This document shows positions 1 to 53,668 of a DNA stretch of 64,000 nt, one piece after another. A model generated the notes under the pieces. The model saw only the letters and a list, made by a program, of their open reading frames with translations, was not told where the DNA came from and ran no database searches. Position 1 is the stretch's first letter. Every line of letters begins with the position of its first letter. The stretch comes from Erodium maritimum (Eukaryota > Streptophyta > Magnoliopsida > Geraniales > Geraniaceae), in assembly GCA_963921825.1 (NCBI GenBank), contig OY997591.1, positions 32,137,825-32,201,824 on the forward strand. Reading direction: 5' to 3'. The position numbers were made by a program, and so were the translations under genes.

Positions 1-1232
1 AGTTATCACTGGTAGTCTACTTAAGATCAAGAAACAGCGATCGAGTAAAATAAGGATGACGGCCCTAAGCCTTATTCGATCGAGATATCATTGACAGAAG
101 GGTTAGCATATTAGCGTGTAAAAGGTTAAGTCGCATTGACGATCATTATACACGTTTGGGTAGCCATATTGCTTTGCTAGAAGACAACTATGACATGTGG
201 ACGAAACGAGGATTTCGGGCCCACTGCCAACACATGTTATGAGCCTACAGGGTCGCACACAACAACGAGCCAAAAATCGAATTGGACTTATGAAGTCCCT
301 CAAGTGAATATAATAATATATTATATATGATATAATATTTATTTATTCATTAACTCGTTTTTCGAATTACCAATATAATAAAGATTATGTTGGACAATTA
401 AAATGCAAAAATGACTCTTGAATTTGTGAAATTCAAAGAGGGTATTTTTGCATGACCACTACTCCTAAAATGAGACACTTGTCATAAAAGAAAGTCCAAG
501 AGTTGGGCTTGATTGAAATGACTTAGTGGAGTCATGTTTAGGAATAGTAAGCATGCAAAACCTAAGTGAGACACTTGTCCAAGTGTTGGGTTTTTCCAAA
601 TAAAATAAGTGTGGTCATGTTGGGTTATATAAGCATGCAAGTGTAGAGAAAAATCAGTTTTTTTTTATCATGGTTGAGTTGAGAATGGTTCTCAAAGTGT
701 AGAGAGAAAAACGAGTGGAGAGAAAAGAGAGAGGAAGAAGTGTTCTTCATCTTGTGCTAGCACACAAACGATTTTGGGAAGGATTGTTCAAGAACTACGT
801 GGCTTTGATTCCTCCAAGAGGATACTTAGGCGTCTTGGAGACTCAAGCCAAATCCATTTGTTTCGGGTGTTGTTTGTTTGCAAGAAAAAGATGAAAAATC
901 TGGGCAGATTTTTCTGCCCAGATTCTGTCCGACCAGCCACTGTAAAGAGCTCGATCGGAGGTTCGTCTGAGGTCCGATCTTGCTGATTTTTGGACTGAAC
1001 GTTCTACACATATTGTTCTTCAATCTGACCGGAGGGATTTGCATTCCAACGGTTCGTGTCTGAGATATACGAGCTGCAAGTTGGTCCCTATCTCGAACCA
1101 AGCTGGAAAATTGAAAGAGGTAATCTCTCCTTTAATTTTGTTTGTCGTTTTACTCGGAATTACATGGATCCTGAGGCTATTCTAGGGAAAGTTTTTATTT
1201 TCCGCTGCGTTTTTCTCCCTAGAATTCCAACA
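1..1232 (+). repeat. Element A 5' LTR (right-hand part)
   Basis: Aligns almost base for base with 7071-8300 and ends in the same CCAACA. The first ~600 bp of this LTR lie left of the window. Confidence 0.93.
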
Positions 1233-1233
1233 G

Positions 1234-1245
1234 TGGTATCAGAGC
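1234..1245 (+). other. Element A primer-binding site
   Basis: TGGTATCAGAGC begins one base after the LTR end. It is the usual plant primer site complementary to the 3' end of initiator tRNA-Met. Confidence 0.92.
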
Positions 1246-2972
1246 CTCTTGTAATTCGTTTAAACCGACCATGCATGCTTGGTTGTTGTATGAGCTTTCG
1301 TGTTTAAGAGGTTTTTGTTGTTGCATGTTGATGCATGTTTGATTGTAGGCTGAATTTGCATGATTTAGGCATGTTGGATAATAGGATTATACAACATGTG
1401 TTATAGTTGTGAACTATGATTATGCAAATTAGTTTTTCTAATGGGGTGCACTGTTATGAACCGTGAAAATAATCTATTGAGAATGGATAATTGATTTCAT
1501 AATGTGATTATGGAATGATGAAGGTGCTAGTAACACGCATGCATGAGTACTAGTAGCATATTTTGCAAGTGCTAGTAGCATGCATGCATAAGTGCTAGTA
1601 TCATCCTAGTTCAAGTGATGATAGCATCCTTTTTGGGGGCACTAATACTTTGTAATACTATGTTATGAACATATGGTTTAATTCACAATATGATTGTGAT
1701 TTGTTAATGGAATTGTGGTTATTCGAGTTGTTTTAAAACAAGTTCAAATATCATAAAATCCAATGGTTGGATTAATTCCAATGAGGTTTTTCTTTGGTAA
1801 TTCAAATGCCTTAGTGAAAAATTCTCTGAACCCCTTCACCCCGTTAGAGGCGCTACAATCATCTTTGAATAAATTGTTTACTTTAAGGTGTGTTGCTTGA
1901 TGCATGGTGCATAGCATAGCCCATCCCGACCAATTTTGCTTGCTTTAATTTTATTTGGGTTTGTAATTTAAATACGGCTTGCGTGTCATTATTTTTATTG
2001 TAATAAGTTCTTTGTAACAAGAGAAGCCCAAGACGGTGTTTTTCAAGAGAAGCAATTTTGAAGGAAGGTCAAAAAGAAAAGTGGGAGGTGGAACTCAAAG
2101 ACGGAGGTTCAAGATGAAGAGTTCTCTTGAAGGCTTGTTTTTGTTTCACCCCTAGGATTGACCTTTGGTCTTCATATGGGCTTATGAAGACCAACTTAGT
2201 AATGGACTATGCTATGACACGTTTACTTTTATGCTTATGCATGGTATTGCATGACTTATTTATTGTTAAAGTGCTTAGACCGTTTGTATGTGATACAACA
2301 GACCTTTTGTATATGATACAATAAGGAAAAATCAACCCTAAACTAAATATTAAGTCGGTGAGATGCCTTCCATATTTGTCCACCTATCGAAACTTAGATC
2401 TATGTGTAGGTTATGCCTACGCGTGGTGCACATAGTTCTCTAAGTTAGATAGGATGGATTAAGCACTTATCCAACCTTAGAACGTTGTGTGTAGGTTATG
2501 CCTACGCGTGGTGCACACAATTGTCTAAGATTGGATGGATCAAACTTTAAATTGCTATGTGTAGGTTATGCCTACGCGTGGTGCACATAGTCGTTTAAGT
2601 TTGATGGCAATGAGTGAACTTTAGGTTGCTATGTGTAGGTTACGCCTACGCTGTGGTGCACATAGTAATCGAGGTTGCATATCCGGATATGGTTGTACTT
2701 TTCTAGGTTATCAAAACAGTTTTGGACCTAGGGCATCAGATAGAATTTGTGCCAACACATATGATGTGTTTATTCTATCCAAGAGTTGTATAGTGATGCA
2801 ATTGGTAAATAGTTACCTACCTAATTAGTATCGCTTGGGGCGATTAAGCCCACGCTTACTCCAAGTGGTATTCAATATGGATCTTGGCTTTTAATGTATC
2901 CTGAAGATACAACAAAGGGTTGATTATTTTATATTCGTATTAATGACTTTGCATATCTATCTGTTGTAGATC
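1246..2972 (+). other. Element A untranslated leader with repeat blocks
   Basis: A 1.7-kb leader between the primer site and the gag start. I see no coding content. Around 1520-1625 there are tandem variants of a GTGCTAGTAGCATGCATGCAT-like word. From about 2381 to 2668 lies an array of four hairpins, annotated separately. Confidence 0.75.
2381..2668 (+). repeat. Array of four long hairpins in leader of element A
   Basis: Four copies of a core (TAGGTTATGCCTACGCGTGG, with small variants) at about 2407, 2492, 2562 and 2636. In each, GTAGG pairs with CCTAC around a 5-base loop. A 7-bp outer stem is perfect in all four: CTATGTG/CACATAG in copies 1, 3 and 4, and TTGTGTG/CACACAA in copy 2, a compensated change. 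Farther out the arms differ between copies but still pair within each copy: AACTTAGA/TCTAAGTT in copy 1, ATCCAACCTTAGA/TCTAAGATTGGAT in copy 2 (one mismatch), and ATCAAACTT/AAGTTTGAT in copy 3. Copy 4 is weaker outside the 7-bp stem. The function is unknown; a structured leader RNA is my inference. Confidence 0.8.
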
Positions 2973-5900
2973 ATGTCTTCAAACAATTCACATAATTTAT
3001 CGATACAATCGATCCTTGAGAAGGATAAGCTCAATGGGACAAATTTTCTGGATTGGGCCAGAAACCTGAGAATTGTTCTCAGGTAGGAAAGAAAAGAGTA
3101 TATCTGGATGAGCCAGTTCCTGAGGAACCAGCCTCGAATGCTTTGAAATCCATTAGAGATGGTTGGACCAAGCATTTTAATGACTTTGTTGATGTCACTT
3201 GTATAATGCTTGGTTCCATGGAGGCTGATCTCTAGAAGCAAATGATGGAGGAGGATGCGTATGACATGATGGTTCAACTCAAGGAAATGTTCCAAGAGAA
3301 GGCTAGGATTGAAAGGTTCAATACTGTCAAGAACCTCATGTCATGCAAGATGCCTGCTGGGAAGAGTGTTAGCCCTCATGTGCTTAAGATGAAGGGTTTC
3401 ATTGAGCATCTTGAGAGACTCGATTTCAAGTTAGAACCGGAGTTGGCTACAGATATTCTCCTCCAGTCACTTCTTGATGAATTTCATGGTTTCATTATGA
3501 ACTTCTATATGCATAACATGGTCAAGACCATCTCAGAGTTGCATGGGATGCTTCAAACTGCTGAGAAGAACATCCAAGGTAATACCAAGGATGTTCTGAT
3601 GGTTAAGAGAGGAACCGAGTACAAAAGGAAAGGGGTAGGGAAAGGAAATGGTCTTTTGGCTCCTATGAGTTTAAGGCCCATGTCAAAGCCAAGGCCCGAG
3701 TACACTCAATTTCCAGCCCCAAAAGACTCGGTTTGCCATTACTGCAATGAGGTTGGTCATTGGAAGAGGAACTGCAAGAAATATAAAGATGATCTGAAGA
3801 AGAACAAGGGTAGTGTACCCAGCTCTTCAGGTATTCATGTTATAGAAATAAATGCATCTACATTTTGATTCTTGGATATTGGATATTGGATCCGAATCCC
3901 ACATTTGTATAAATGTGCAGGGACTCAAAAGTAAGAGGGCATTGAAGGAAGGCGTGGTGGACCTAAAAGTTGGGTATGACCATGGAGTCATTGCCTTAGC
4001 TGTGGGGACATACGAGTTGGCCTTGCCTAGTGGGCTTGTTTTGCATTTTGAACAATGTTATCATGTACCTACGTTTTGTAGGAGTATCGTCTCCATTTCG
4101 TGTTTGGACAAAGAAGACTATATGTTTGCTATTGAGAATAGTAATTTTAGTCTTTCTCATGATAACGTTCATTGTGCAAATGCTTCTCGAGTTAGAGGTC
4201 TTTATATTTTGAACATAGAAGACTCTAATGAGAAGTCCCTCTATAACATTGATACAAGAGGGTTTAAGTCTAATGAGACAAACCCTATATTCCTCTAGCA
4301 TTGCCGCTTGATTCATATAAATAAGAAACGCGTATCAAAACTCCAATTCCATGGACTTTTGGATTCTTTTATGAATCATTTGAAACGTACGAATCTTATT
4401 TAATGGACAAGATGACAAAGACACATTTTTCTGAAACCGTAATAGAGCTAGTGGCTTATTGGGGATTATACATTGGATGTATGTGGTCCAATAAGTGCAA
4501 CTGCTAGAGGAGGATTTGGGTACTTCATAACAAATCGGAATTTTTGAAACGTTCAAAAATTTCAAGAATGAAGTACAAAATAAACTTGGCCAAAATATTA
4601 AGGCACTACGATATGATCGAAGTCGTGAATATTTGAGCCAAGAGTTCGTAGATCATCTGAAAGATTGTGAGATCATTTCTCAACTAGCTTCCTCGGGAAC
4701 ACCACATTGGAATGATGTGTATGAACTGAGGAATCGAACCCTATAGGATATGGTTCGGTCTAAGATGAGTAACATTGATCTCCCAATATCATTTTGAAGA
4801 TATGCTCTGGAAACTACTACATTCGTCTTGAACAGAGTACCACCAAAAGCAGTAGATAAGACACCATATGAGATGTGGACAGGAAAGGTTCTTGATTTGT
4901 CTTTTCTAAGGATATGGGGATGTGTAACTTATGTGAAGCGTCTAATGACGAATAAGTTAGCCCCAAATCAGAGAAGTTCCTCTTTGTAGGATATCCTAAG
5001 GAAACTAAAGGATATTACTTCTACAATGCTACGAAGAACAAAGTGTTTGTTGCTCGGGGTGGAGTATTTTGGAAAGAGAGTTTATTTCCAAAAGAAACAG
5101 TGGGAGGGCTGTTGAACTTAAAGAAGTTACAGACCCACAAAGTAGCGTTGTGCCTAAAATGGTTACTCAAGTACATGAACAAGAGAATGTAGTACTTGAG
5201 GTTGTACCACAAGTACAAAGGAGGTCTGATAGGACACGTCAAGCCCATATCAGATACGGGTTTCTCAGTTCAGAGATTAATGACGTGATAGATGTGGATC
5301 AAGTTGAATCCACATCCTATCAAGAGACCATTGACTAGCTGCAGAAATCCATTCATGGATTAAAGCAGGCTCGTCAAAGTTGGAATCTTTGTTTTGACGA
5401 ATAAGTCAAAGGGTTTGGCTTCATCGAGTACAAAGATGGGCCTTGTGTGTACAAGAAGGTTAGTGGGAGCGCGATCGTATTCTTAGTGCTGTATGTAGAT
5501 GACATACTGGTCATTGAAAATGACATCTTTATCTTGAATGACGTTAAGGCGTGGTTAGGGCAATGCTTTTCAATGAAGGACCTAGGCGAAGCTGCCTATG
5601 TATTACGTATCAAAATCTATGGAGATAGATCTAGAAAGCTTCTGGGCCTAAGTCAGAGCACTTACACTGACAAGGGGTTGTCAAGGTTTAGTATGCAAGA
5701 CTCTAAAAGAGGGTTTTTGCCAATGTCCCATGGCATTAGTCTCAGCAAGACTCAGTGTCTTATGACACTTGATGAGCGAGACCGCGTGAGTAAAATCCCA
5801 TATGCGTATGATATTGGGTTTATCTTATATGCGATGTTGTGTACTAAACACAGTGTCTCGTATGCATTAAGTGCAACGAGTAGATACCAGGCAGGTCCAT

Positions 5901-6452
5901 GTGAAGGTCACTGGACGACAGCTAAAGGATCCTTAAGTACTTGAGAAGGACTAAGGATGCATTTATGTTGTATGGCGGTCAGAAAAGTGAACTAGCTGTA
6001 AAGAGTGACATAGATGCTAGCTTCCAGACCGACATAGATGATTTGAAATCATAGTTTGGTTATGTGTTTTTGTTTGAATGAAGGTGAGTTCAGCTTAAGA
6101 AGCTCGGAGCTGAACACGGTTGCTACAACAGAAGACGAGAAGTTAGCTGCATTGGATGCAGCTAAAGAAAGTGTTTGGATCCGGCTTGGGAATCATCCCT
6201 AGTATATCAGATCCGGTAAACATATATTGTGATAACTATGGGGCGATAGCACAGGCCAAGGAGCCTAGATCGCACAAGAAATCCAAACACATCCTAAGTC
6301 GTTACCATCTTATTGAGAGAGGAAACGCTAAGATATGCAAAGTACCTACAAATGATAATGTGGCTGATCATATAACCAAGGCGCTTCCACACCTTGGACA
6401 TGAGTGTCATGTCAGGTCAATAGGCATTACTTGTAATGTCGATTGGACCTAG
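2973..6452 (+). pseudogene. Element A gag-pol region (fossil)
   Basis: In order: gag from the ATG at 2973, with the plant copia capsid-type region and a CCHC zinc knuckle at about 3734-3775 (CX2CX4HX4C); the protease region near 3870-3930; integrase, from the zinc-binding region through the catalytic core, about 4290-5000; the integrase-RT linker about 5000-5340; reverse transcriptase about 5340-5940, including the YVDD-type block at about 5490; RNase H about 5950-6440. Gene order identifies Ty1/copia. The region is broken in many places and should be read as a fossil. Confidence 0.88.
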
Positions 6453-6464: not shown

Positions 6465-8300
6465 TGTTGGTTTTTGTGCCCTAGGCCAATCGTGATTATG
6501 GACGGCATTATCATTTCATTAATACACCGGCACTACTGTTATCATTTATGAAATGTTAATAGTGTGAATTATACTCTTTCTTAAGATCATCGGGTTGAGG
6601 ACCTGATAGTAAAACTCTTAGAAGTAATAGAGTATTATTCACTTGATCCCTGGTCTTACTGATATACTAAGACTAGTATGATGTTGGCTGATGATCACGT
6701 TTTACTGATCATACATATTGGATATGAAGTCAAATCATAGATGTCATTTAGGGAAATGGCATTGGATGACCCACTATGAGAATACTACATAGGAACTGTC
6801 ATGAGTATTTCTCAGTACCGTAATATGACTTAAGTCCTCTGACCTTATAGTCATCATGATTTCTACATAGGTGGCTGTGTGCTTTGACACAGTTAAACGT
6901 TGTCTTTAACCGGGCAATTATAAAGGCTGTGATTGGGTGCATAAGTGTCTATGTGAGAGATATGGTTGACTGATAATAGATCTGTCACTCATATAAATAT
7001 GAGAGATATCGTTTGGGCCCCTTGATAAGTGGGACTGCAGGAAAAAGCATAGCCATGCGAATTGATAAAGAGTTATCAGTGGCAGTCTACTTAAGATCAA
7101 GAAACAGCGATCGAGTAAAATAAGGATGACGGCCCTATGCCTTATTCGATCGAGATATCGTTGACAAAAGGGTTAGCATATTAGCGTGTAAAAGGTTAAG
7201 TCGCATTGGCGATCATCATACACGTTTGGGTAGTCATATTGCTTTGCTAGAAGACAACTATGACATGTGGACGAAACGAGGATTTCGGGCCCACTGCCAA
7301 CACGTGTTATGAGCCTACAGGGTCGCACACAACAACAAGCCCAAAATCGAATTGGAATTATGAAGTCCCTCAAGTGAATATAATAATATATTATATATGA
7401 TATAATATTTATTTATTCATTAACTCGGTTTTCGAATTACCCATATAATAAAGATTATGTTGGGCAATTAAAATGCAAAAATGACTCTTGAATTTGTGAA
7501 ATTCAAAGAGGGTATTTTTGCATGACCACTACTCCTAAAATGAGACACTTGTCATAAAAGAAAGTCCAAGAGTTGGGCTTGATTGAAATGACTTAGTGGA
7601 GTCATGTTTAGGAATAGTAAGCATGCAAAACCTAAGTGAGACACTTGTCCAAGTGTTGGGTTTTTCCAAATAAAATAAGTGTGGTCATGTTGGGTTATAT
7701 AAGCATGCAAGTGTAGAGAAAAATCAGATTTTTTCTCATGGTTGAGTTGAGAATGGTTCTCAAAGTGTAGAGAGAAAAACGAGTAGAGAGAAAAGAGAGA
7801 GGAAGAAGTGTTCTTCATCTTGTGCTAGCACACAAACGATTTTGGGAAGGATTGTTCAAGAACTACGTGGCTTTGATTCCTCCAAGAGGATACGTAGGCG
7901 TCTTGGAGACTCAAGCCAAATCCATTTGTTTCGGGTGTTGTTTGTTTGCAAGAAAAAGATGAAAAATCTGGGCAGATTTTTCTGCCCAGATTCTGTCCGA
8001 CCAGCCACTATAAAGAGCTCGATCGGAGGTTCGTCTGAGGTCCGATCTTGCTCATTTTTGGAGTGAACGTTCTACACATATTGGTCTTCAATCTGACCGG
8101 AGGGATGTGCATTCCAACGGTTCGTTGCTGAGATATACGAGCTGCAAGTTGGTCCCTGTCTCGTACCAAGCTGGAAAATTGAAAGAGGTAATCTTTCCTT
8201 TAATTTTGTTTGTCGGTTTACTCGGAATTACATGGATCCTGAGGCTATTCTAGGGAAAGTTTTTATTTTCCGCTGCGTTTTTCTTCCTAGAATTCCAACA
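6465..8300 (+). repeat. Element A 3' LTR (complete, 1836 bp)
   Basis: Starts TGTTGG and ends CCAACA. The portion from 7071 matches the window start to 1232. It contains a hairpin-like AAAATCTGGGCAGATTTTT stretch (about 7962-7981), also present in the 5' copy. Confidence 0.93.
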
Positions 8301-9190: not shown

Positions 9191-9254
9191 GGTAACCACA
9201 ATCACAATCACAAGCAAGTTCAACAAACAGTAACAACACAGGTTCAACACTCCA

Positions 9255-9800
9255 CATGCAGTCATGGCCACCCAAGACACACCGACCATAACTCACGGGC
9301 TCAACAACCCCACGGCACTCACGGCCACCCAAGACACACCAACAGTAACTCACGGGCTCAACAACCCCACGGGCACTCACGGCCACCCAAGACGCACCGA
9401 CAAAAACTCACGGGCTCAACAACCCTACGGGCACTCACGGCCTCCCAAGACACACCAACAGTAACTCACGGGCTCAACAACCCCACGGGCACTCATGTCC
9501 TCCTAAGACACACCAACAGTAAAGACACGGGTTCAACAACCCCACGGGCACTCACGGCCTCCCAAGACACACCAACAGTAAAGACACGGGTTCAACAACC
9601 CCACGGGCACACATGGCCTCCCAAGACACACCGACAATAACTCACGGGCTCAACAACCCCACGAGCACTCATGGCCACCCAAGACACCAACAGTAAAACA
9701 CGGGCTCTCATGGACACCCAAGACATAACAGTAATACGGGCTCTCATGGCCACTCAAGACACAACATTTATACGGGCTCTCATGGCCACCCAAGACACAA
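9255..9800 (-). repeat. 57-58-bp minisatellite inside D1 LTR
   Basis: About seven regular units of a CCACGGGCACTCACGGCC...GGGCTCAACAA type run to about 9690, followed by shorter degenerate units of 30-40 bp. Its reverse complement is the 55500-56140 array of LTR D2. A further two-copy repeat follows (about 9815-9915). Confidence 0.87.
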
Positions 9801-11617
9801 CTACACAATCAACCTCCGGGCATAACCAATGCCTCCAGCAGTTCTAATATCAATAAGTTCACAATCAACCTCCGGGCATGGTCATATGCCTCCAGTAATT
9901 CTAATGTCGATAAGTTCACTGCTCCTACGACACTACTAAGTGTCACATGCATTGCTAAGATTCGCTACGTTCCCGTATCATACCTTTCTAATATTCGATA
10001 AACCTACTTAACCCACGACACCCCGGTGTCACATGCAGTTCTACTGTTAACTTTCCCTAGTCAGGGCCGAGATCCGGCTACTTTTCCCTACCTCTTGAAG
10101 CGTGTCAAACCCGATACTCTTACTCCGGCGAAGCTCCATAATTCCCGCTTAGCCTCCTATTTCCACGGTAGGCGACACGGTATACAATCATTACAATTAA
10201 CACACTTTTTAAGTAAGCAGGCGAAACCCGAATTTAAAGAACTAAACGCCCAAATGCAACCCCGACAATGTCGATCACTCCCAAACTTCCCAATTACTCG
10301 ACCTTGTCGATAATGGGCTCGGAAAAGCCCGATTCGCCCGACATGGCGAGTCTGCCCGGGTTTTGGAAACGCCCTTCCGGGGCCCCGAAAATTCCCGTTT
10401 TCGTTTCTACGGTCTTAGAATAATTCAAGGGTTTCTAGGCACTCGACGAAATCGAATTCCGACTTCCGAGTCATTTAATTAGCGTTTAAAGTTTCTAAAC
10501 CCGTCAATTACAACTTCTATAATTTAATTCCAAATTTCGATCCGGGTGTGGATTAATTACTTGGGGAACGTTCTAAACCACCCGAACTAGAAACCCGAAT
10601 ACCCGAGCATGTGGCCCCACCCGATCCCCTTTGGCCGTGGGTGGCTAGGGCCGGTTTGGGGCCGGTCCTAAATCCGGCCAGCCACCCTACAAAACTGGCC
10701 AGCCACCATACACGGTGGCCGGAGCTCCCCCGAGCCTCCGGTCACCGGAAAACGTTCACCTCTTCGTTCCAAAACACCTCCAACGAACCCCACACCTCAA
10801 ATCATCCATAAACTACTAGTTTTAACCCAAACCCTAATCTTTAAATTCTACAAAACGAAAATCGAATAGGTGCTCACCGTAGGCAATGATGACGGAGACT
10901 CGATTCTTCGATCGTCGAGACTATCCGTCGGTTGGATCGTCGAGAGATCGACAAACCCTAACCTTGTCTTCTCTTTTTCTCTCCTCCTTCTCTCCTCTTT
11001 CTAACTCCTTTTTCTCTCTCTAAAAACTCTTATTTTCACCCTTTTTGAATGTATGGCCGAACACCTCTATTTGATCTTCTTTTTGTTTTGTTTTAAAAGA
11101 ACAAATAATACTTAAATTGTAAAACTAACCATCAAGTAGTCTTGTCTTGTGTTGTCCAATAAACCTAACACCACCACATTGGTGACATGTGGCAAGTGGG
11201 TCCCACACCTTTTGAAAAATATCTTCTAGATATTTTCCAAGAAGATTCGCGAAATTCGGTCGTTTCGGGCCCCGAACGGGCACTTTTTCCAAGAAATTAC
11301 GAAATTTCACGGGCTACAAGAAAACGGCTCAACTAAGACCGCTGCGACGATGGCTAAGCTTTTTCGATCCAAAACGGTCCTCGAATGGACCAAAACGTTG
11401 CTCGGTTGACTTTTCCAGCGAAAAGTCAACAATTCCCAAATTGGTCAGAAAGTTGCCCTGAGTCCCCCGGAACTCACTTTGGTCGATATCGGGGTCAACT
11501 TAAGTCCAGTATGACCCTCGGGGTCAAATTTACATTCATTTAAGTGTCTGCTTAAAAATTTTAAATTTTTCTATTTTTCGCAGATTTGACTGGCGTTGAC
11601 CGGGAGTGGTTATTACA

Positions 11618-22104: not shown

Positions 22105-22635
22105 TTTAAAGGAAAAGAACGAGTTTTATTCGTATCAAACCATCAAACATAACGAGAAATAGGGGGAGTAGTATATCTGAAGACTGAATACAACTAATCC
22201 TCCAAATAAACCCGAGGTATAGTCAGGTTTTTTGAGTGACCAAGCACTTAGATTTACCATAACACTTATAAACTAAGAAGTAAAATTGATGCTAGACCAA
22301 CTAACTAGACATGAACTGAAAACTATATCTGACTCGACCTGAACCCAACGAAAGTAGCTTCAAAACTTATGTATCCTTCAATTGGGACCTCTAAACTGTT
22401 GGGAGACGCGTGCGGTTTGGGGATGGATCACGTGACATGGTGGACAGTTAAACCATGTAAAAAAGAATAAAACAGATAAAGGAAAACTAAACCAAACAAT
22501 CATGATAGCCCGAAACCGAAAGACAGATCGAATAGGAGGCATCGGTGTAAACCAAGGAGGAAGCTTCGTCACTGGAAGCTTTAGAGGCAGCGAGGGATGA
22601 TCGGGGGAGCGTCGGCTTTAGTGGCTCCCCCATGG
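22105..22635 (-). mobile_element. LINE-like 3' end, minus strand (interrupted by B2)
   Basis: Read on the minus strand it ends in AATAAAACTCG...CCTTTAAAAAAA, the short A-tail preceded by AATAAA typical of plant L1-type LINE 3' ends. No reverse transcriptase is present. The copia B2 insertion cuts it at 22635, so the remainder may continue at 31085. Confidence 0.45.
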
Positions 22636-24317
22636 TGTTAGTCTTAGTGCCCGTAGTTCAATCCTAAATGTCCAAATGTATATATCATCGTTAGCAATAA
22701 AATTAAAGCGGCTTTATATTACTTATGTGTTGGAGTAATATATCGATGTGTGCTCTGATCTATGCCCACCATGCGAATAGAACCATAAATCGAGATAGAT
22801 CACACTGGATTGGTCCCTAGTCAACAAAGCTCCACTAGAAGCGACTAGTTTGAAAGATTTATGGCTTACGTTCTGTTAGTCATTGGAATGGGATTCCGGA
22901 GTCTGATCATAGATATCATATGGGACATGATAGTGGACGACCCGCCCTGAATATGTGCCATAGATTAAGTCATGAACATATTCAGTGTCGTAGCTTGTGA
23001 TGTATCCTTAGACCAAGGAGTCTTTGTGATCGCTATGTAGTCAACAACTGAGTTTGACCTGAGCCTAACGTTGTCCGTAACAGGGCTTCCATAACCGCCA
23101 GGATTGGCTTGGGGACGGGCTACATGAGTGACACGAAAGGCGGCTAAGGGATTTATCCCTCATACTGAGGTATGGGAAAGATATCGGTTCTCGGCCGCTT
23201 GATCGAGAGTGACTGAAAGAATAGCATGGCCATGCACATGATACTGGGTATCATATCTTTAGTCATCTCACAAATCAAGGAACGGTGATTGAGAATAATA
23301 AGGATGAAGACTCTATGCCTTATCTCAATCAAGATATCAGAGATAAAAGGATAATGACAGGGATGACAGAAAGGTTAGAATCGACAGGGTCGATTCGTTA
23401 TGCAGTGTCAGGCAATACTAAAGTATCGTTAGTCGCCACTTAAATAGGATCAAGTAAAATGGGATTTTACGTTGATCTATTGACATGCATAAACCTAAGG
23501 GTCACACCGGAGGATGAAACTCATTGACACATTTATGGAGAATGGCCAAAAGGGAGTTGTCTCGGGACATGACCAAAACTGGGTTTTGGGTCATGTTCCC
23601 GTAAGTGAATAGGACTTTACGGATCGAGACAAGGCTTGGAGTCTTGGGATTGATCGCGTCGGATAATGTTGGACATTTCCGGTATGGAAGGCTTGGAGGC
23701 GATGAGCGAATCACGGGACCTCGTTGGAAATGGCCACGGGCCATGTTCCAAGAGGCCCATGAAAGACCCATGCAACCAAGGCCCATGGAACTAATTAATC
23801 AAGTCTTGATTAATTATTACTAAGTAAGCAAGACAAGGATTAGGGTGTTGGTGATTCACCACCTAACCCAATCTTGTCTTGCCATACTTTGTCCTATTTA
23901 CACCTTACTTGTCACCATGTTTGTCCCATGCCTTTAGTTGGACAAGTATTGGTTTTGTTATGTTTAAGTCATCTTTTTTCAACATAACAAACACAAGACA
24001 AGAATAGGAAACACAACTTCTCTCCCCCTTCCCTTGCAATTTCGGGTTTGGCAAGCTCCCACCTCCATTTTTCTGTTCTTGAGCCCTCAAAGAGAAGAAC
24101 TACGTGGCTTTGATTCCCATGTGGACACGTAGGCGTCTTGGAGACTCAAGACAATCATTCGTTACCCGGTGTTCTTGTTTTGGTAAAAACTAGTGCTGAA
24201 TTTTTCTCTTGTGAATCTATTCTTTGTTAGTTGTTTCATGATTTTAATCGTCTCTTGGTTTTCATTGATTTTCCGCTGCGAGTTGGTTCATCTCCAACCA
24301 TACCTCGAGACCCAACA
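22636..24317 (+). repeat. Element B2 5' LTR
   Basis: TGTTAGTC...ACCCAACA, 1682 bp, followed immediately by the Met-tRNA primer site. Confidence 0.94.
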
Positions 24318-24318
24318 G

Positions 24319-24330
24319 TGGTATCAGATC
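24319..24330 (+). other. Element B2 primer-binding site
   Basis: TGGTATCAGATC, one base off the initiator tRNA-Met complement that is exact in B3 (48600-48611). Confidence 0.85.
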
Positions 24331-25261
24331 CGTGCTACCTTCGGGATTCACAAGACGGTGTTCAAAGTTTCGGTTTTGCTTGAAACTTTCGTTTTTGGCA
24401 TGTTGTTTCGCTAAATTGTTTGATAAAATGTTTTAAATTCTTGTTTATGGATTTAATGCATGTAAAATGAATTTTTGGAAATTATTTCAAATCTGAAATT
24501 TTTGAAATTTTTTTATTTTTCGGGTCTCGGTAGCGGGACCCTCGGGGAGCCGAAACCGGGACCGAACGGGGCTCTGTTGGACGGAGCTAGGCCAAGCATG
24601 ACCATTGGATGGTTGATATGCCAAGGCTAAATCGTTGTTTTAGTTATGACGAGTTTGGAACCGTCATGACGAACTCGAAGATCAAATGTTCAAAAGTTTC
24701 ATTTTTGAACGGTTTCGATAAACCGAGCATCAAAACTTTTCGCAACTTGGCTATTAAATAAAACGGAAAAATAACATGATGTTTGATAACATGATTGTTT
24801 GATAACACGATGTGTGATGTGATGTTGGCATGGTGTACATAATAGCCCCGAGCTCGATTTAATTATTTATCGCTTTTCACGGCCTGCGAACCGTTAAAGT
24901 TAGCGTGTAATTATTCTTTCAAGGTGTGGTCGCCGAACCACTTGTTTGTAATATTTATTTATTCCCGACCTGCGAGTCGTGTATTAAATTGTAATATTTT
25001 ACTCAAGACGAAGAAAGGGTGAAAAGGTCATTTAGTGGCTTTTCGGGTGTTGGCATCGACTTGGAGTTGGTGGAGCTCAAGAAGCTAGTGGGAGTTAGTT
25101 TAGGGGGCTATTATGTGCACATTTATCGCTTTATGCTTGGTTTAGTTTATGCATGATTAATTCTATGTGTTTTAGAATTGCATGCTTAACTTTATTTACC
25201 GAGCATATCAACTCACATGTAAAGATAAAATTGGAATTTTAATCCTTGTGTGTGAGCCCTT

Positions 25262-25700
25262 AGAATCGTCATTACATTGGATGTAGTTGACAGGTTCGAA
25301 GGAAGAATTACATTGGATGTAATTTGAGGCATCATTGCATTTGGAATGTAGTTGATGTGCTCATCGCATCTAGGATGTGTCAAAGTTTTAAACACAACCG
25401 GACAAGTAAAAACGGCTCATGTCCGATACCTCCCAATTATCAACACCTTACTACCTCCCCGTCCTATGGGTGTCGTGCGCATTAGCGGAGCATCCATGGG
25501 AAAGTGGGTAGTAGGTTTGGACGACATATGTGGGTGTCGTGCGCATTAGCGGAGCACTTACATAGTGACGGGCCATAGTTTAAAATTGGTGGACCCGACT
25601 ACGATTCTCAGCCTGAGGTTGAGCTAGGGTAACAGATAGGGTAAGCCGTGTACATAAGTACATACCCTAGCCAAGAGTCACATTGGATGTGATTGGATGA
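25262..25700 (+). repeat. Leader hairpin arrays of element B2
   Basis: Two kinds of repeated hairpin. (1) Small ones centred on ACATTGGATGT at about 25269-25290, 25306-25325, 25331-25356 (variant) and 25676-25692. Outer pairs change together, for example TTACAT/ATGTAA in one and TCACAT/ATGTGA in another. (2) Two large ones (about 25446-25519 and 25520-25571) with the common core GTCGTGCGCATTAGCGGAG. Their arms differ: TACTACC..CCTATGGGTG pairs with CATCCAT..GGTAGTA, and CATATGTGGGTG pairs with CACTTACATAGTG. A further 9-bp stem GCTAGGGTA/TACCCTAGC spans 25623-25671. Confidence 0.7.
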
Positions 25701-25871
25701 AGTCCTACCTACATAGCTCGATTAAGTGGTGAGCATTAGTTTAGCTTAATCGAGTGAATCAAGGATCTTGGTTTCAGATTCTAAAGGTTTAGAATCGTTT
25801 GTTGGTGTTTAAGCTTGATCTTCATAAAATTTATTCAGTTTACTGATTGAATTTTATCTGTTGTAGATCAA

Positions 25872-28800
25872 ATGGCAAATTCAGCGAACATTAATAGTTT
25901 GTCATTAAAAACCATTCTTGACATGGTCAAGCTAAATGGGACAGACTATTTGGACTGGTACAGAATTTTGAGGATAGTCCTCAAGTCTGAACGCAAAGAA
26001 TATGTCCTTGACAAGGCTGTCTCTAAGACCATATCAGAGTTACATGAAGTGTCATTAATTGCTGAGAAGAATATATCAGGGATCTGTGATCCAAGGATAT
26101 TCTGATGGTCAACAAGGGAATTGGAAGTGGCAAGGGCGGGGACCATGCACACCTGGCAGGAAAGATAAGACACCTGAGAATGTCTGCCTCTACTGCCAAC
26201 AGCCTGGTCATTGGAACCGGGATTATAGGAAGTTCACGGCTGATCTGAAGAAGGGTAGTGGGACTACGCCTTCATCAAATAGCCTGGCTGATCTGAAGAA
26301 GGGCAGTAGGACTGCGCCTTCATCAGGAAACCTGGATGATCTAAGGAAGGGCGGTGGGACCGTGCCTTCATCCGGTATTAACTCTATGGAGCTGCATCTC
26401 TCTACTTCCAAAGGTTCATGGGTATTAGATACTTGGACTGAATCTCACACATGCACTAATATATAGTGGTTGAAAGTAGAAGAGGTTTGGAAAGCACGAA
26501 GTGGACCTCAGAGTTGTGGCAACTGTAGTAGGATCCATGAGTCTTGATTTGCCAAGTGGCCTTGTCTTAGTATTGTATAATGTATATTGCATACCTACTT
26601 TTAGTAGGAATATTATATTTGTATCCGTGTTTGACAAGGAAGGATATAATGTTAATATTGGAAATGGAGTTTTCAATGTTCTATGCAATGATATGTTTTA
26701 TACCAGGCTGACTTGGTTGGAGGATTGTACATATTAGATATGGGTAACAATGCCTCAAGTTCTATATATAACGTTAATACTAAGAGGTCTAAATCCAACG
26801 ATTTAAACCTAACTCTGTTATGACACTGTCATTTGGGCTGCATAAACAAGAAGCGCCTATCAGCACTTCAGAAGTGCGGGCTTGCAGGTTCATTCGGATT
26901 CCATTCGATCGATAGGTGCAAGGTTTGTTTGATGGGCAAAATGACTAAAGTGCCCTTTATTGAGCGCGATGAAAGGGCGGGTGAATTATTGGGGCTGATA
27001 CACTCGAATGTGTGTAGACCAATAAGTTCACTTGCCTGGAGGGGTTTTAGCTACTTTATCACATTTACTGATGATTACAGTAAATATGGTTATGTCTATT
27101 CGATGAGACATAAGTATGAAGCTTTTGATAAATTCAAAGAGTTTAAGACTAAAGTAGAAAACCAGCTCGACAAAGGTATTAAGGCACTTCGATTGGATCG
27201 AGGTGGAAAAATACTTGACCACAGAGTTATTAGATCATCTAAAAGAGAATGGGATCCTTTTGGAATGGACTCCTCCTGGGACACTGTAGTTGAAAGGTGT
27301 AGCCAAACGGAGAAATCGGACATTGTTAGACAATGGTCCGTTCCATGATTAGTTGGACTGGTCTCCCATCTCTTTTAGGGGTTATGATCTAGAGACGACC
27401 ACATTCATAGTGAATCGGGCTTCGACGAAGGGTGTGGAAGGGACACCATTTTAAAATGGTACGAGATGATGCCCGCTTTGTCCTTCCTAAAGATTTGTGG
27501 TTGCGAGGCTTATGTGAAACATTTGGTTTCGACTAAGCTCGAACCAAGATCTGAGATATGCACCTTCGTGTGCTATCCCAAAGCAACAAGGGGATACTAC
27601 TTCTATAATCCCAGTGAGAACATGGTGTTCGTCGCTTGGGGTGGGGTCGTTATGGAAAAGGAGTTTTGTTTCCATAGACGTCATTGGGAGGACTGTGCAT
27701 CTCGAAGAAATTCAGGATGGTACAGATCTGTCTAAACCAATTGACAACCCAGTAGAAAGGATCCAGAGATTGTCGTAGAGTAAGAACCAATTCCTGTTAC
27801 AATTCCGGAAGGTCTAAGGCGATTTGAAAGGATCAATCTTCCACCTCCAAGATATGGTATCCGGAGGTGACAATGAAGTCATGGTGGATCGCGATGATCC
27901 AGCCACCGTTCAAGAAGTCGTGGATGAGCCCTACTCCGAGTTATGGCTGGGAGCCATGAGGGAGGAAATGCAATCCATGTCGGACAACCAAGTCTGGGAA
28001 CCGGTTGATCCCATCAATGGTGTGAGGACCATCGGATGCAAATGGATCTTCAAGGTGAAGATGGACATGGACGACAACCCTCTGACCTACAAATCTCAAC
28101 TGGTGGCGAAAGGTTATAGGCAGATCCAATGGATTGACTATGAGGAAACCTTCTCCCTAGTGGCTATGGTCAAAATCGATCCAAATTCTTCTTGACATAA
28201 TTGCGTATCATAATTACGAGATATGGCAAGTGGATGTCAAAACCTCTTTCCTAAATGGTTATTTGACTGAGTACGTTTGTATGTCTCGGCCCAAAGGTTT
28301 TGATGATCCGAAGAATAAGGGAAAGATTTATAAGTTGTTGAAATCTATTTATGGATTGAAACGAACTTCTCGGAGCTGGATCCTTCGTTTTGATGAAGCT
28401 GTAATTGGATTTGGCTTAATCAAGAACGAGGATGAATCTTGCGTTTATAAGAAGGCTAGTGGGAGCAAGATTACCTTTCTGGTTCTCATTGAAAACGACA
28501 TCCCAACCTTGCACGAGACTTAAGCTTGGTTGAGGAAGTGTTTTTCAATAAATGACTTAGGCGATGCTTCTTATATCTTAGGGATTAAGATATGTAGAGA
28601 TCGCACCAAGATGGTCTTGGATTTAAGTCAGGGAACCTATGTGAACAAAGCATTGAGTAGGTTCTTAATGCTCGATTCAAAGAAAGTACTCTTACCCACT
28701 AGTCATGGCATTTATTTCAGCAACACTCGGTGTTCTCAGACAGCTGATGAGCTGAAAAGGATGATGAGAATCCTATGCGCCTGGGGGCAGGATCGATCAT

Positions 28801-29375
28801 ATATGCCATGACATGTATGAGACCGGACGTCTCGTAAGCCTTTGTTGTACCAGTAGACATCATTCTAACCCGGGGGAAAGATGATGCTGAACTAGTCGTC
28901 GAAGGGTGAGTAGACGCTAGTTTTCCAAGACAAATCTAGATGACTTTAGAAGTCAGTCAAGATATGTGTTTACGCTGAATGGCAGAGCTTTAGCTGGGAG
29001 AGTGTAAAGCAAGATACCATTGCCGAATCTACGACAGAGGCCAAGTACATGGATGCTGCAGAGGCAGCTAAGGAGGCTATGTGGATTTGGAAATTCATGG
29101 CAGGGCTGGGTGTAATTAAAAACCCATCCAGCCCGGTGAATCGATTTTGCGACAACACAAGGGCCATTGCGCAAGCTAAAAGCCCAGATCGCATAACAAA
29201 TCCAAACATGTACTGCGGCGTATCCACCTCATCAGAGAAATACTGAACTGAGGTGAAGTGAAGATAACCTTTATTGCAGCAGATGATAACATAGCCAACC
29301 CTTTGACTAAGGCAGTGTCACTGCCTGAACATGTTAGACATGTAAAGTCGATGGGGACATATTGGAGTTTAGATT
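25872..29375 (+). pseudogene. Element B2 gag-pol region (fossil)
   Basis: gag starts at the ATG at 25872. The zinc-knuckle region is near 26190, followed by three 48-bp tandem units (26239-26379). Protease remnant near 26420-26465; integrase about 26820-27400; integrase-RT linker about 27460-27900; reverse transcriptase about 27940-28800; RNase H about 28950-29340. Order and motifs are Ty1/copia (TNT1-94-like). Broken in many places; most breaks recur in B3. Confidence 0.87.
26239..26379 (+). repeat. Three 48-bp in-frame units in gag of B2
   Basis: Units begin at 26239, 26287 and 26335. Each encodes a 16-residue stretch of the type DLKKGSGTTPSS, hydrophilic and basic-serine rich, directly after the zinc knuckle. 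B3 has the same three units at 50513-50653. Confidence 0.85.
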
Positions 29376-29397
29376 GGAACTAGGGCAAGTGGGAGAT

Positions 29398-31079
29398 TGT
29401 TAGTCTTAGTGCCCGTAGTTCAATCCTAAATGTCCAAATGTATATATCATCGTTAGCAATAAAATTAAAGCGGCTTTATATTACTTATGTATTGGAGTAA
29501 TATATCGATGTGTGCTCTGATATATGCCCACCATGCGAATAGAACCATAGATCGGGATAGATCACACTCGATGGGTCCCTAGTCAACAAAGCTTCACTAG
29601 AAGCGACTAGTTTGAAAGATTTATGGCTTACGTTCTGTTAGTCATTGGAATGGCATTCCGGAGTCTGATCATAGATATCATGTGGGACATGATATTGGAC
29701 GACCCGCCCTGAATATGTGCCATAGATTAAGTCATGAACATATTCAGTGTCGTAGCTTGTGATGTATCCTTAGACCAAGGAGTCTTTGTGATCGCTATGT
29801 AATCAACAACTGAGTTTGACCTGAGCCTAACGTTGTCCGTAACAGGGCTTCCATAACCGCCAGGATAGGCTTGGGGACGGGCTACATGAGTGACACGAAA
29901 GGCGGCTAAGGGATTTATCCCTCATACTGAGGTATGGGAAACATATCGGTTCTCGGCCGCTTGATCGAGAGTGACTGAATGAATAGCATGGCCATGCACA
30001 TGATACTGGGTATCATATCTTCAGTCATCTCACATATCAAGGAACGGTGATTGAGAATAATAAGGATGACGACTCTATGCCTTATCTCAATCAAGATATC
30101 GGAGATAAAAGGATAATGACAGGGATGACAGAAAGGTTAGAATCGACAGGGTCGATTCGTTATGCAGTGTCAAGCAATACTAAAGTCTCGTTAGTCGCCA
30201 CTTAAATAGGATCAAGTAAAATGGGATTTTACGTTGATCTATTGACATGCATAAACCTAAGGGTCACACCGGAGGATGAAACTCATTGACACATTTATGG
30301 AGAATGGCCAAAAGGGAGTTGTCTCGGGACATGACCAAAACTGGGTTTTGGGTCATGTTCCCGTAAGTGAATAGGACTTTACGGATCGAGACAAGGCTTG
30401 GAGTCTTGGGATTGATCGCGTCGGATAATGTTGGACATTTCCGGTATAGAAGGCTTGGAGGCGATGAGCGAATCACGGGACCTCGTTGGAAATGGCCACG
30501 GGCCATGTTCCAAGAGGCCCATGAAAGACCCATGCAACCAAGGCCCATGGAACTAATTAATCAAGTCTTGATTAATTATTACTAAGTAAGCAAGACAAGG
30601 ATTAAGGTGTTGGTGATTCACCACCTAACCCAATCTTGTCTTGCCATACTTTGTCCTATTTACACCTTACTTGTCACCATGCTTGTCCCATGCCTTTAGT
30701 TGGACAAGTATGGGTTTTGTTATGTTTAAGTCATCTTTTTTCAACATAACAAACACAAGACAAGAATAGGAAACACAACTTCTCTCCCCCTTCCCTTGCA
30801 ATTTCGGGTTTGGCAAGCTCCCACCTCCATTTTTGTGTTCTTGAGTCCTCAAAGAGAAGAACTACGTGGATTTTATTCCCATGTGGATACGTAGGCGTCT
30901 TGGAGACTCAAGACAATCATTCGTTACCCGGTGTTCTTGTTTTGGTAAGAACTAATGCTGAATTTTTCTCTTGCGAATCCATTCTTTGTTAGTTGTTCCA
31001 TGATTTTAATCGTCTCTTGGTTTTCATTGATTTTCCGCTGCGAGTTGGTTCATCTCCAACCATAACTGGAGACCCAACA
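29398..31079 (+). repeat. Element B2 3' LTR
   Basis: 1682 bp, same length as the 5' LTR, followed by target-site copy CATGG. Confidence 0.94.
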
Positions 31080-44831: not shown

Positions 44832-46921
44832 CTAAACACCTGTTATATGCTCTATTTCATCTGAATTCAATTTGAACCTTTGTTCCGGTCATATACTTTT
44901 TGGGAGTTTCCTTATTTATGTTTCCCACTGTCACGCCCCAAATCCAGTTTTGACCGGACTCGAGACGTGACTTCAAGAAGAAACGAGTATAACAATAAGA
45001 TATCATAAAAATGGTAAAATCATCCAACTTTCATTTAATAAAAACATCTCAAATAATACTTATAATAAATCCTTTAACAAAAGGTCATGACCACAAAATA
45101 CGACCAACGTCTCTAAGCACCCGGACCCTAGAAGCTCCCGAGCCTCGAGTCCACTAATCATCACGCAAACCTGTAGAATAGTCGTAAACAGATAGGGGTG
45201 AGCTTACGCTCAGTAGGGAAAATGCTTAACTAGGCATGCCTTTAGTTTAACAGTTAGGATTCCTCAATTTTAGTTCGAATCTCAAATTACGAAGAATTGC
45301 GAATACATTTGTAATAACCACTCCCGGTCAACGCCAGTCAAATCTGCGAAAAACAGGAAAATTTAAAAAATTTCAGCAGACACTTGATTGAACCTAAATT
45401 TGACCCCGATGGTCATACCGGACTTAAGTTGACCCTGATATCGACCAAAGTTAGTTCCGGGGGACTCAGGGCAACTTTCTGATCAGTTTGGGAAATGTTG
45501 ACTTTTCGTTGGAAAAGTCAACCGATCGACGTTTTGGTCCATTCGAGGACCGTTTTGGATCCAAAAAGATTAGCCGTCATCACAGCGGTCTTAGTTGAGC
45601 CGTTTCCTTGTAGCCCGTCAAGTTTCGTAATTTCTTGGAAAAAGTGACCATTCGGGGCCCGAAACGTCCGATTTTCGCGAATCTGAGTTGAAAATATCTA
45701 GGAGATATTTTCCAAAAGGCGTGAGACCCACCTTACCACATGTCACCAATGTGGTGGTGTTAGGTTTATTGGAAAAAACAAAAGAAGACTAAATGGTGTT
45801 AGTTTTGTAAATGAGGAAAGTTGATGTTTTTTTGAAACAAATTAAAAGGGAAGCAAGTGTGTGTCTCGGCCACAAAATAGAAAAAAGGGAGCGTTTGAAG
45901 AGAGGGAAAGGAGCTAGAAAGAGGAGAGAAGGTGGAGAGAAAAAGGAGAAGAAAGCTTGGGTTTTTGTCGATTTCTCGACGATCAAACCGGTGGATCGTC
46001 CCAACGATCAAGGAATCGAGCTCCCACCGTCATTCCCTACGGTGAGAACCTAACCGATTTTCATTTTGGAACGTTTGAATTTTATGGTTTGAGTTTAAAT
46101 GGTCTGATTATGGTTGAGTTAAGGTGTGGGGTTCGTTAGGAACGTTTTGGTGCGAAAAGGAACATTTTGCGTTGTGGCCGTGTGGGGCCCACTTGGTCGG
46201 GCCACGGGTTTTTCGTGTTCGGGTGGTCTTGGTTGATCCCCGAGTCGAAAATTCTCACCCGGAACGAATTATGGAGTTAAATTGTAAAAGTTGTAATTGA
46301 CGGGTTTAGAAACTTTAAACGCTAATTAAATGACTCGGAAGTCGGAATTTGATTCCGTCGAGTGCCTAGGAACCCTTGAATTATTCTAAGACCGTAGAAA
46401 CGAAAACGGGAATTTTCGGAGCCCCGGAAGGGCGTTTTCAAAACCCGGGCAGATTCGCCATGTCGGGCGAATCGGGCCTTTCCGTGTCCAATATCGACAA
46501 TGTCGAGTAATTGGGGAGTTTTGGAGTGATCGACATTGTCGGGGTTACTTTTGGGCGTTTAATACTTTAAATTCGGGTTTCGCCTGCTTACTTAAAAAGT
46601 GTGTTAATTGTAATGATTGTAGACCGTGTCGCCTACCGTGGAAATAGGAGGCTAAGCGGGAATTATGGACCTTTGCCGGAGTAAGAGTATTGGGTTTGAC
46701 ACGCTTCAAGAGGTAGGGAAAAGTAGCCGGATCTCGGCCCTGACTAGGGAAAGTTAACAGTAGAATTGCATGTGACACCGGGGTGTCGTGGGTTAAGTAG
46801 GTTTATCGAACATTAGAAAGTCATGATACGGGAACGTAGCGAATATCGGAAATGCATGTGACACTTAGTAGTGTCGTAGGAGTAGAGAACTTAGCGTTAT
46901 TAGAATTACTGGAGGCATATG

Positions 46922-48598
46922 TGTTAGTCTTAGTGCCCGTAGTTCAATCCTAAATGTCCAAATGTATATATCATCGTTAGCAATAAAATTAAAGCGGCTT
47001 TATATTACTTATGTGTTGGAGTAATATATCGATGTGTGCTCTGATCTATGCCCACCATGCGAATAGAACCATAGATCGAGATAGATCACACTCGATGAGT
47101 CCCTAGTCAACAAAGCTTCACTAGAAGCGACTAGTATGAAAGATGGCTCTTTATGGCTTACGTTCTGTTAGTCATTGGAATGAGATTCCGGAGTCGGATC
47201 ATAGATATCATGTGGGACATGATATTGGACGACCCGCCCTGAATATGTGCCATAGATTAAGTAATGAACATATTCAGTGTTGTAGCTTGTCATGTATCCT
47301 TAGACCAAGGAGTCTTTGTGATCGCTATGTAGTCAACAACTGAGTTTGACCTGAGCCTAACGTTGTCCGTAACAGGGCTTCCATAACGGCCAGGATTGGC
47401 TTGGGGACGGGCTACATGAGTGACATGAAAGACGGCTAAGGGATTTATCCCTCATACTAAGGTATGGGAAAGATATCGGTTCTCGGCCACTTGATCGAGA
47501 GTGACTGGAAGAATAGCATGGCCATGCACATGATACTGGGTATCATATCTTCAGTCATCTCACATATCAAGGAACGGTGATTGAGAATAATAAGGATGAC
47601 GGCTCTATGCCTTATCTCAATCAGGATATCGGAGATAAAAGGATAATGACAGGGACGACGGAAAGGTTAGAATCGACAGGGTCGATTCGTTATGTAGTGT
47701 CAGGCAATACTAAAGTCTCGTTAGTTGCCACTTAAATAGGATCAAGTAAAATGGGATTTTACGTTGATCTATTGACATGCATAAACCTAAGGGTCACACC
47801 GGAGGATGAAACTCATTGACACATTTATGGAGAATGGCCAAAAGGGAGTTGTCTCGGGACATGACCAAAACAGGGTTTTGGGTCATGTGCCCGTAAGTGA
47901 ATAGGACTTTACGGATCGAGACAAGGCTTGGAGTCTTGGGATTGATCGCGTCGGATAATGTTGGACATTTCCGGTATGGAAGGCATGGAGGCAATGAGCG
48001 AATCACGAGACCTCGTTGGAAATGGCCACGGGCCATGTTCCAAGAGGCCCATGCAACCAAGGCCCATGCAACTAATTAATCAAGTCTTGATTAATTAGTA
48101 CTAAGTAAGCAAGACAAGGATTAAGGTGTTGGTGATTCACCACCTAACCCAATCTTGTCTTGCCATACTTTGTCCTATTTACACCTTACTTGACACCATA
48201 CTTGTCCCATGCCTTTAGTTGGACAAGTATGGGTTTTGTTATGTTTAATTCATTTTTTTTCAACATAACAAACACAAGACAAGAATAGGAAACACATTTT
48301 CTCTCCCTCTTCCATGGCCATTTCGGGTTTGGCTAGTTTCCACCTCCATGTTTGTGTTTTTGAGTCCTCAAAGAGAAGAACTACGTGGCTTTGATTCCCA
48401 TGTGGATACGTAGGCGTCTTGGAGACTCAAGCCAATCATTCGTTAACCGGTGTTCTTGTTTTGGTAAGAACTAGTGCTGAATTTTTCTCTTGTGAATCCA
48501 TTCTTTGTTAGTTGTTTCATGGTTTTAATCGTCTCTTGGTTTTCCTTGATTTTCCGCTGCGAGTTGGTTCATCTCCAACCCTACCTCGAGACCCAACA
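46922..48598 (+). repeat. Element B3 5' LTR
   Basis: TGTTAGTC...ACCCAACA, followed at 48600 by the exact initiator tRNA-Met complement TGGTATCAGAGC. Confidence 0.94.
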
Positions 48599-49529: not shown

Positions 49530-49965
49530 CCCTTAGAACCGTCTTTGCATTGGATGTAGTTGACGGGTTCAAAGGAAGAATTACATTGGATGTAATTTGA
49601 GGCATCATTGCATTTGGAATGTAGTTGATGTGCTCATCGCATCTAGGATGTGCCAAAGTTTTGAACACAACTGGACAAGTAAAAGCGGGTCATGTCCGAT
49701 ACCTCCCAATCATCAACACCTTACTACCTCCCCGTCCTATGGGTGTCGTGAGCATTAGCGGAGCATCCATGGGGAAGCGGGGTAGTAGGTTTGGACGACA
49801 TATGTGGGTGTCGTGCGCATTAGCGGAGCACCTACATAGTGACGGGCCATAGTTGAAAATTGGTGGACCCGACTACGATTCTCAGCCTGAGGTTGAGCTA
49901 GGGTAACAGATAGGGTAAGTCGTGTACATATGTACATACCCTAGCCAAGAGTCACATTGGATGTG
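49530..49965 (+). repeat. Leader hairpin arrays of element B3
   Basis: Same arrangement as in B2: small ACATTGGATGT hairpins (about 49577-49600, 49950-49967) and two large hairpins with the GTCGTG-GCATTAGCGGAG core at about 49719-49792 and 49794-49845. In the second, TATGTGGGTG faces CACCTACATA, a 10-bp stem with one mismatch. Confidence 0.7.
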
Positions 49966-53640: not shown

Positions 53641-53668
53641 TAGATTGGAACTAGGGCAAGTGGGAGAT

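Follow-up and report, generated by a model that had tools for sequence, protein, structure and literature searches.

The window, the whole 64,000-nucleotide stretch of Erodium maritimum DNA analyzed here, comes from a 763-Mb genome in 40 contigs, nine of which are 63 to 159 Mb long. At its left end lies a degraded Copia element that starts about 605 nucleotides (nt) before the window and ends near position 8300, with all of its features on the forward strand. Its long terminal repeats (LTRs) are about 1.84 kb each and 97.2 to 97.5% identical to one another; the 3' portion of the 5' LTR occupies positions 1 to 1232, and its direct repeat, the 3' LTR, occupies positions 6465 to 8300. Directly after the LTR end is a primer binding site (PBS), TGGTATCAGAGC, at 1234 to 1245, which we take to be a match to the initiator tRNA-Met. 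The coding part retains a gag piece with a CCHC zinc knuckle (3236 to 3868; Pfam PF14223, E = 3e-12, and PF00098, E = 2.7e-5), a Pol_BBD piece (3852 to 4298; PF22936, E = 2e-8), and a reverse transcriptase piece (5405 to 5944; PF07727, RVT_2, E = 6.6e-12). The LTR pair, PBS, copia-type gag, and RVT_2 domain identify the element as a Copia LTR retrotransposon. An untranslated leader of 1.74 kb (1233 to 2972), which contains 63 ATGs, extends from the LTR end to a gag-side ATG at 2973 that we infer to be the gag start. The lengths of the LTR and leader presumably resemble those of BARE1, of the Angela/BARE lineage.

The leader contains four tandem hairpins, which an earlier note on this sequence had placed at 2381 to 2668. 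The four copies are real, and their measured extent, 2378 to 2680, is slightly wider. Hairpin 1 (2378 to 2459), which has an extra outer arm, has a minimum free energy (MFE) of -38.2 kcal/mol (z score, -6.7, as for each hairpin relative to 200 dinucleotide shuffles). The values are -32.0 kcal/mol and -5.1 for hairpin 2 (2468 to 2537), -28.4 kcal/mol and -5.5 for hairpin 3 (2539 to 2605), and -26.4 kcal/mol and -2.5 for hairpin 4 (2614 to 2680). Hairpin 4, whose apex has one extra base on the 3' side, is the weakest, with 5 of its 200 shuffles equally low. The MFE of the whole array is -133.0, compared with -90.7 ± 5.2 for 200 dinucleotide shuffles, none of which was as low (z, -8.2).

The array is not the only structured site in the element. 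When 105 windows of 100 nt across it were scanned, with z scores from mononucleotide shuffles, 18 had a z score below -3; the array contributed five consecutive windows (-3.5 to -5.6), and single windows at 1533 (-6.2) and 5283 (-6.6) scored lower. The first of these overlaps a tandem palindromic repeat around GCATGCATGC at 1519 to 1604 of the same leader, and the second falls in a strongly folding stretch of the pol part at 5233 to 5433. Just 5' of the array, at 2277 to 2321, a 23-nt direct repeat is present in two copies, both of them small hairpins (TTGTAT-NTG-ATACAA), and 3' of the array, at 2738 to 2779 on the forward strand, is a further hairpin that is conserved in 27 distinct versions, among which no covariation was seen. 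A long-range helix around the array (2330 to 2339 with 2916 to 2925) appeared in the fold of 2300 to 2975 and was absent from the fold of 1233 to 2975; it is not claimed because about 1.4 perfect 10-mers would, by estimate, be expected by chance in a 1.7-kb leader. Comparison of positions 1000 to 4000 with Rfam, at E values up to 5, gave three matches, all below the gathering score and none in the array.

The hairpins share one design. An outer arm of about 8 to 13 bp leads through an internal loop to an inner stem of approximately nine pairs, beyond which come two bulged Gs on the 5' side, an apical helix of six pairs, and a four-base loop. In hairpin 1 the core spans 2407 to 2428, with the GG bulge at 2409 to 2410, the apical helix at 2411 to 2416 and 2421 to 2426, and the tetraloop at 2417 to 2420. 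The other cores in the array are at 2492 to 2513, 2562 to 2583, and 2636 to 2658. The inner arms that had been singled out, CTATGTG/CACATAG in copies 1, 3, and 4 and TTGTGTG/CACACAA in copy 2, are present and fully complementary. The almost constant apex of the earlier note is indeed shared but is not an unpaired loop. It folds into the GU-rich helix UUAUGC/GCGUGG, flanked by a GG bulge and capped by a tetraloop; in the minimum-energy fold this is TTATGC(CTAC)GCGTGG with a 2-nt bulge. Three pairs of the apical helix are U-G in most family I copies. An alternative apical stem, GTAGG/CCTAC, requires the CTAC loop and is broken by a CAAA loop; it was rejected as the common fold because it is lost in relatives with the latter.

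A 25-nt core, allowing up to 3 mismatches, had 382 matches across the genome, which represent hairpins rather than elements, and a reversed control had none. Loss of the array from relatives, which would have argued against a conserved fold, is not what was found: 38 of 40 scored leaders, part of 174 candidates that match the 5' part of the leader, have matches at the expected place, some of them partial and all with places paired by eye. Of the remaining two, L085 has four hairpins on reading, and in L084 the family match ends near window position 2205, before the array. The row alignment comprised 57 of 69 arrays, the other 12 being partial, lengthened, interrupted, or unclear at one end. 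Copy number shifts by whole units, with additional hairpins in L033, L050, L060, and L061. A deeper family II consists of 12 loci that are 71 to 84% identical over the alignable part; eleven have three to five hairpins, spaced largely 85/70/73-75 nt. Within this family L091 has one hairpin, L099 has a different spacing (74/69/69), and L086 and L098 have one extra hairpin. Steps of 131 to 132 nt in family II were discarded as a false match downstream. A search of viral contigs for the apex yielded no matches.

The arms were described in the earlier note as differing between copies yet remaining self-complementary within each, and this description held. Of the 24 arrangements of left with right arms, the hairpins' own ranked first in the window; among 53 elements with four scored hairpins it ranked first in 49, second in three, and seventh in one. 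All six pairwise swaps favored the own arms in 47, 50, and 49 of the 53 elements at arm lengths of 16, 23, and 30 nt, respectively, counts that are not independent because the elements are related to one another. In family II the own arms won 47 of 65 swaps across eleven loci, a weaker preference than in family I.

Pairing is well preserved within the close family and is for the most part retained in family II. When the 57 aligned arrays were scored on the structure taken from the window, 96.7% of cells were paired in subfamily A, 94.3% in B, and 90.0% in the single C row, compared with 24 to 44% when partners were slid. Covariation between these close copies was at about chance level by estimate, with 5 of 13 both-sides-changed states pairing. 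One-sided changes kept the pair in 14 of 23 cases when shared by at least five rows and in 33 of 115 cases when private (P = 0.007). This difference arises largely because transversions are rarer among the shared changes in stems (20 transitions and 6 transversions) than among the private ones (54 and 61), and it thus lends weak support; in unpaired columns, the corresponding numbers were 5 and 14 for shared changes, which include the loop changes, and 18 and 22 for private ones. Shared and private variants showed no difference in GU-type versus CA-type one-sided changes (P = 0.41).

Hairpins were also collected with a strict core descriptor, which returned 284 cores, 153 of them distinct; it fixes parts of the inner stem and the bulge, and so favors them, and it misses hairpins with indels such as window hairpin 4. 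It replaced a looser first version (394 cores, 230 distinct, 0.769 of cells paired) that probably included false cores in 10-kb loci. Among the 153 distinct cores, 2,162 of 2,295 cells were paired, a level reached by none of 500 shuffles, and sliding the partners by 1 to 2 nt left at most 0.634 paired. The covariation proposed in the earlier note was found at three of the 15 core pairs: apical pair 4 and two inner pairs, 1 and 3, each exceeded all 2,000 column shuffles. Such shuffles take no account of relatedness, and few independent events are therefore involved. At apical pair 4, 85 cores have U-G, 22 U-A, 21 C-G, 19 G-C, and 1 G-U, and 5 are unpaired; inner pair 1 of copy 2 occurs as C-G, T-G, and T-A. 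The other 12 core pairs were not beyond the shuffles, most of them because they hardly vary. Three double-change pair types were seen against a shuffle mean of 2.6, and 273 of 500 shuffles reached three.

Other parts of the core are nearly fixed. The GG bulge is kept in 138 of the 153 distinct cores, and U-G is nearly constant at apical pair 1 (141 cores), apical pair 2 (132), and inner-stem pair TA1 (144). At apical pair 3, 26 of the 153 cores have a mismatch, A-A or A-G, which is frequent in family II. The apical helix of that family depends on the place of the hairpin in the array, being typically T[TC]AGGC/GTC[AG]GG in copies 1 and 4, TTACGC/GCGTGG in copy 2, and TTATGC/GCAAGG in copy 3, and the last copy of L099 has TTTGAC/GTCAAG. 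Eight diverged rows differ from the window at 0.157 per site in the spacer and 0.102 in the outer stem, compared with 0.040 in the inner stem and 0.046 to 0.048 in the apex; the loop value, 0.430, mostly repeats the same few changes because most of the eight rows belong to subfamily B.

When the substitutions of each of 12 diverged rows were placed randomly in the window array, the real fold was above the mean stability in all 12. At most 4 of 100 simulations were as stable in 8 of the 12, and in the remaining four rows the numbers were 9, 12, 17, and 30. For ten A rows, 0, 2, 11, 14, 16, 19, 33, 39, 48, and 50 of 100 simulations were as stable. The array is a conserved structured RNA with pairs that covary beyond column shuffles. 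The earlier view that compensated differences mark a folded RNA is therefore sustained by the comparison of tandem copies and of family II, but not by the close copies, which covary at about the chance level. It is very likely that selection maintains the RNA fold, since the paired arms change together.

The array probably acts in sense-strand RNA, because several of its near-constant pairs are G-U. The sense fold is more stable than the antisense fold in 57 of 57 rows, and the z scores for the window array are -8.2 and -7.0, respectively. Base composition explains much of this preference, and therefore only the conserved G-U pairs were used as an argument for the strand.

Among 69 arrays, CTAC is the tetraloop of every hairpin in 23, and CAAA takes its place throughout another 23; the remaining 23 arrays are partial, have private variants, or have other loop types, such as CTAA in L056, CCAA/CTAA in L050, and CTAC/CTAA/CAAC in L064, which demonstrates that loops can differ within one array. 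None of 31 clusters of at least two places each, counted by eye among 100 listed of 297 places, mixed CTAC with CAAA. The CAAA loop, being common in family II, is probably the older, which would mean that subfamily A changed all of its loops, through either conversion or selection. Lower array variation among A copies was not used as evidence because rows had been picked by array similarity. Between 13 A and 9 B rows, group differences occur at 2262 and then at numerous sites between 2327 and 2869; the stretches 2081 to 2261 and 2870 to 2960 have none. The forward-strand patch at 2327 to 2869 thus lies between stretches where the two subfamilies agree. In two B rows there are almost no A/B differences at 1161 to 2300, and differences appear again in gag from about 3200. 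The pattern therefore looks like a recombination mosaic with one patch around the array, as judged from these alignments. It is conceivable, although we consider it quite unlikely, that the tetraloops are a replaceable identity tag and the array a modular cassette that sets Gag-RNA packaging or RNA pairing partners. The four loops of one lineage would have gone from CAAA, perhaps via CTAA, to CTAC with copy-specific arms unchanged, and the array would have been exchanged as a block between subfamilies with a common neighboring leader. If so, subfamilies could separate or parasitize one another by swapping the array.

Position, the repeated site, a putatively exposed GG beside a weak helix, and the CCHC knuckle of the element's own Gag all favor a role in packaging or dimerization. 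The array is downstream of the PBS and upstream of gag and hence part of the genomic RNA, the location of a retroviral-type packaging signal. We propose, with a probability of roughly 0.45, that the array is a multicopy sense-RNA cis element whose sites are bound by the nucleocapsid part of the element's own Gag. Each hairpin, with its stable stem, bulged GG, weak GU-rich apical helix, and tetraloop, would be a putative binding site for the CCHC nucleocapsid, and Gag binding to the repeated sites together would select and pair genomic RNA for packaging. Packaging or dimerization through repeated Gag recognition appears to be the best mechanism among those considered. A counterpoint is that about 1.1 kb separates the PBS from the start of the array, a long distance for a packaging signal of retroviral type. 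Furthermore, none of the 15 commonest tetraloops is self-complementary on inspection, so simple kissing of loops is unsupported; a GTGCAC palindrome is present but is located in the stem.

Other origins and roles for the array have to be weighed against Gag recognition. Template switching during DNA or reverse-transcriptase synthesis might make and repair matched arms without selection on the RNA fold, an unlikely explanation in our view. Template switching in DNA replication is reported, in the available part of PMC8794818, to yield stems, along with compensatory changes at several bases, in a single event. An RNA that is reverse transcribed and has tandem hairpins would be a plausible substrate for it; in copy 2, inner pairs 1 and 3 both have double changes, which are close together; and array length is variable, as the loci with extra hairpins illustrate. 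The process leaves unexplained the retained GG bulge, the GU-rich apical helix, and the slow change of the apex and inner stem, and the three states of inner pair 1 in copy 2 look as if they were connected by a GU intermediate. A further alternative, which we also regard as improbable, is that the array, in the manner of constitutive transport elements, drives nuclear export or stability of the unspliced genomic RNA. According to the accessible portion of PMC12786077, IAP and musD export RNA with the help of cis-acting RNA elements, and components of TREX are recruited by the structured leader of CaMV; repeated hairpins would fit a host RNA-binding protein, but no named export factor is indicated by the sequence.

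Plain scanning through a leader with 63 ATGs is unlikely, and the array might therefore serve translation as a site of ribosome shunt or entry on the way to gag. In plant pararetroviruses shunting involves a short upstream open reading frame (uORF) that ends before a large stem-loop (PMC5902531, in the part available), and a uORF ends upstream of the array in all eight copies considered (the window and the seven that could be anchored of eight named loci, nine having been tried in part), with gaps of 50 to 63 nt in seven and of 26 to 33 nt in L086, L094, L096, and L097. This role is nevertheless rather doubtful, given that the gap and the uORFs vary between copies, that some uORFs reach into the array (in L082, in L094, and at 2363 to 2443 of the window), and that the window array itself has ten ATGs. 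It is very unlikely that the array works in DNA, for example, as palindromic transcription factor binding sites: although repeated palindromic motifs are described in noncoding parts of other Copia elements (Sirevirus; PMC2829016, available part), the conserved U-G pairs work in sense RNA and not in a DNA duplex or the antisense strand, and the sense fold is the more stable in every row, much of which is composition. Dicer-like enzymes can cut long imperfect hairpins, so the array could be a source of small RNAs acting for or against the element, but the bulge and wobble pairs make a poor perfect duplex and we judge this role highly improbable.

Known systems offer partial parallels to an array recognized by Gag. 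The dimerization and packaging region of the gammaretrovirus MuLV likewise has four stem-loops, SL-A to SL-D, close to the 5' end of its genomic RNA, and the same conserved tetraloop caps two of them (PMC5874298, accessible part). In contrast, the four hairpins here are tandem repeats of one GG-bulge design in another class of element and with a putative function, and their loop is not GACG, varies by subfamily, and lacks a long palindrome. MLV leader recombination is biased to the dimerization region, as stated in the title of a reference cited in the accessible part of PMC5874298, and the A/B patch that brackets the array can be likened to this bias. In HIV-1, a UUUU:GGAG helix with weak pairing is the site to which the nucleocapsid binds first (PMC7395439, available text). 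The short GU-rich helix beside the GG bulge is similarly weak, although there is no sequence relation to the HIV-1 site and Gag binding is here an expectation.

Among plant elements, the barley Copia elements BARE1 and BARE2 also have an untranslated leader between LTR and gag, and BARE2 is said to keep dimerization and packaging signals; their description, with which the comparison was made rather than with their sequences, gives no tandem hairpin array in the accessible part of PMC3735527. Sirevirus elements, which are plant Copia elements, have repeated dyad-symmetric motifs in noncoding parts, but these lie upstream of the LTR TATA box and, in some elements, also close to the env gene; they are compared to activators of transcription, unlike leader hairpins with RNA-type pairs (PMC2829016, part available). 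No tandem hairpins in a retrotransposon leader were described in the titles and opening abstract lines listed by literature searches, whose reach excluded most subscription papers. Such an array is absent from the available parts of PMC3735527, PMC2829016, PMC5874298, PMC12786077, PMC1950507, PMC5902531, PMC8794818, and PMC7395439, and a term search within the available part of PMC12218528 gave no matches. The novelty of the array in print is not proven.

How plant LTR retrotransposons choose their own RNA for packaging is, to our knowledge, poorly understood. The natural variants in loops, apical helices, and copy number yield direct predictions about how Gag binds RNA, about packaging, and about cross-packaging from one subfamily to another, and the many genomic copies of a repeated RNA design can be used for structure statistics. 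Elsewhere, the window contains two 8.4-kb LTR elements (22635 to 31079 and 46921 to 55356) that are 95% identical to each other and have LTRs of about 1.68 kb, and two related arrays of an approximately 58-nt tandem repeat lie in opposite orientations at 9226 to 9919 and 55357 to 56148.
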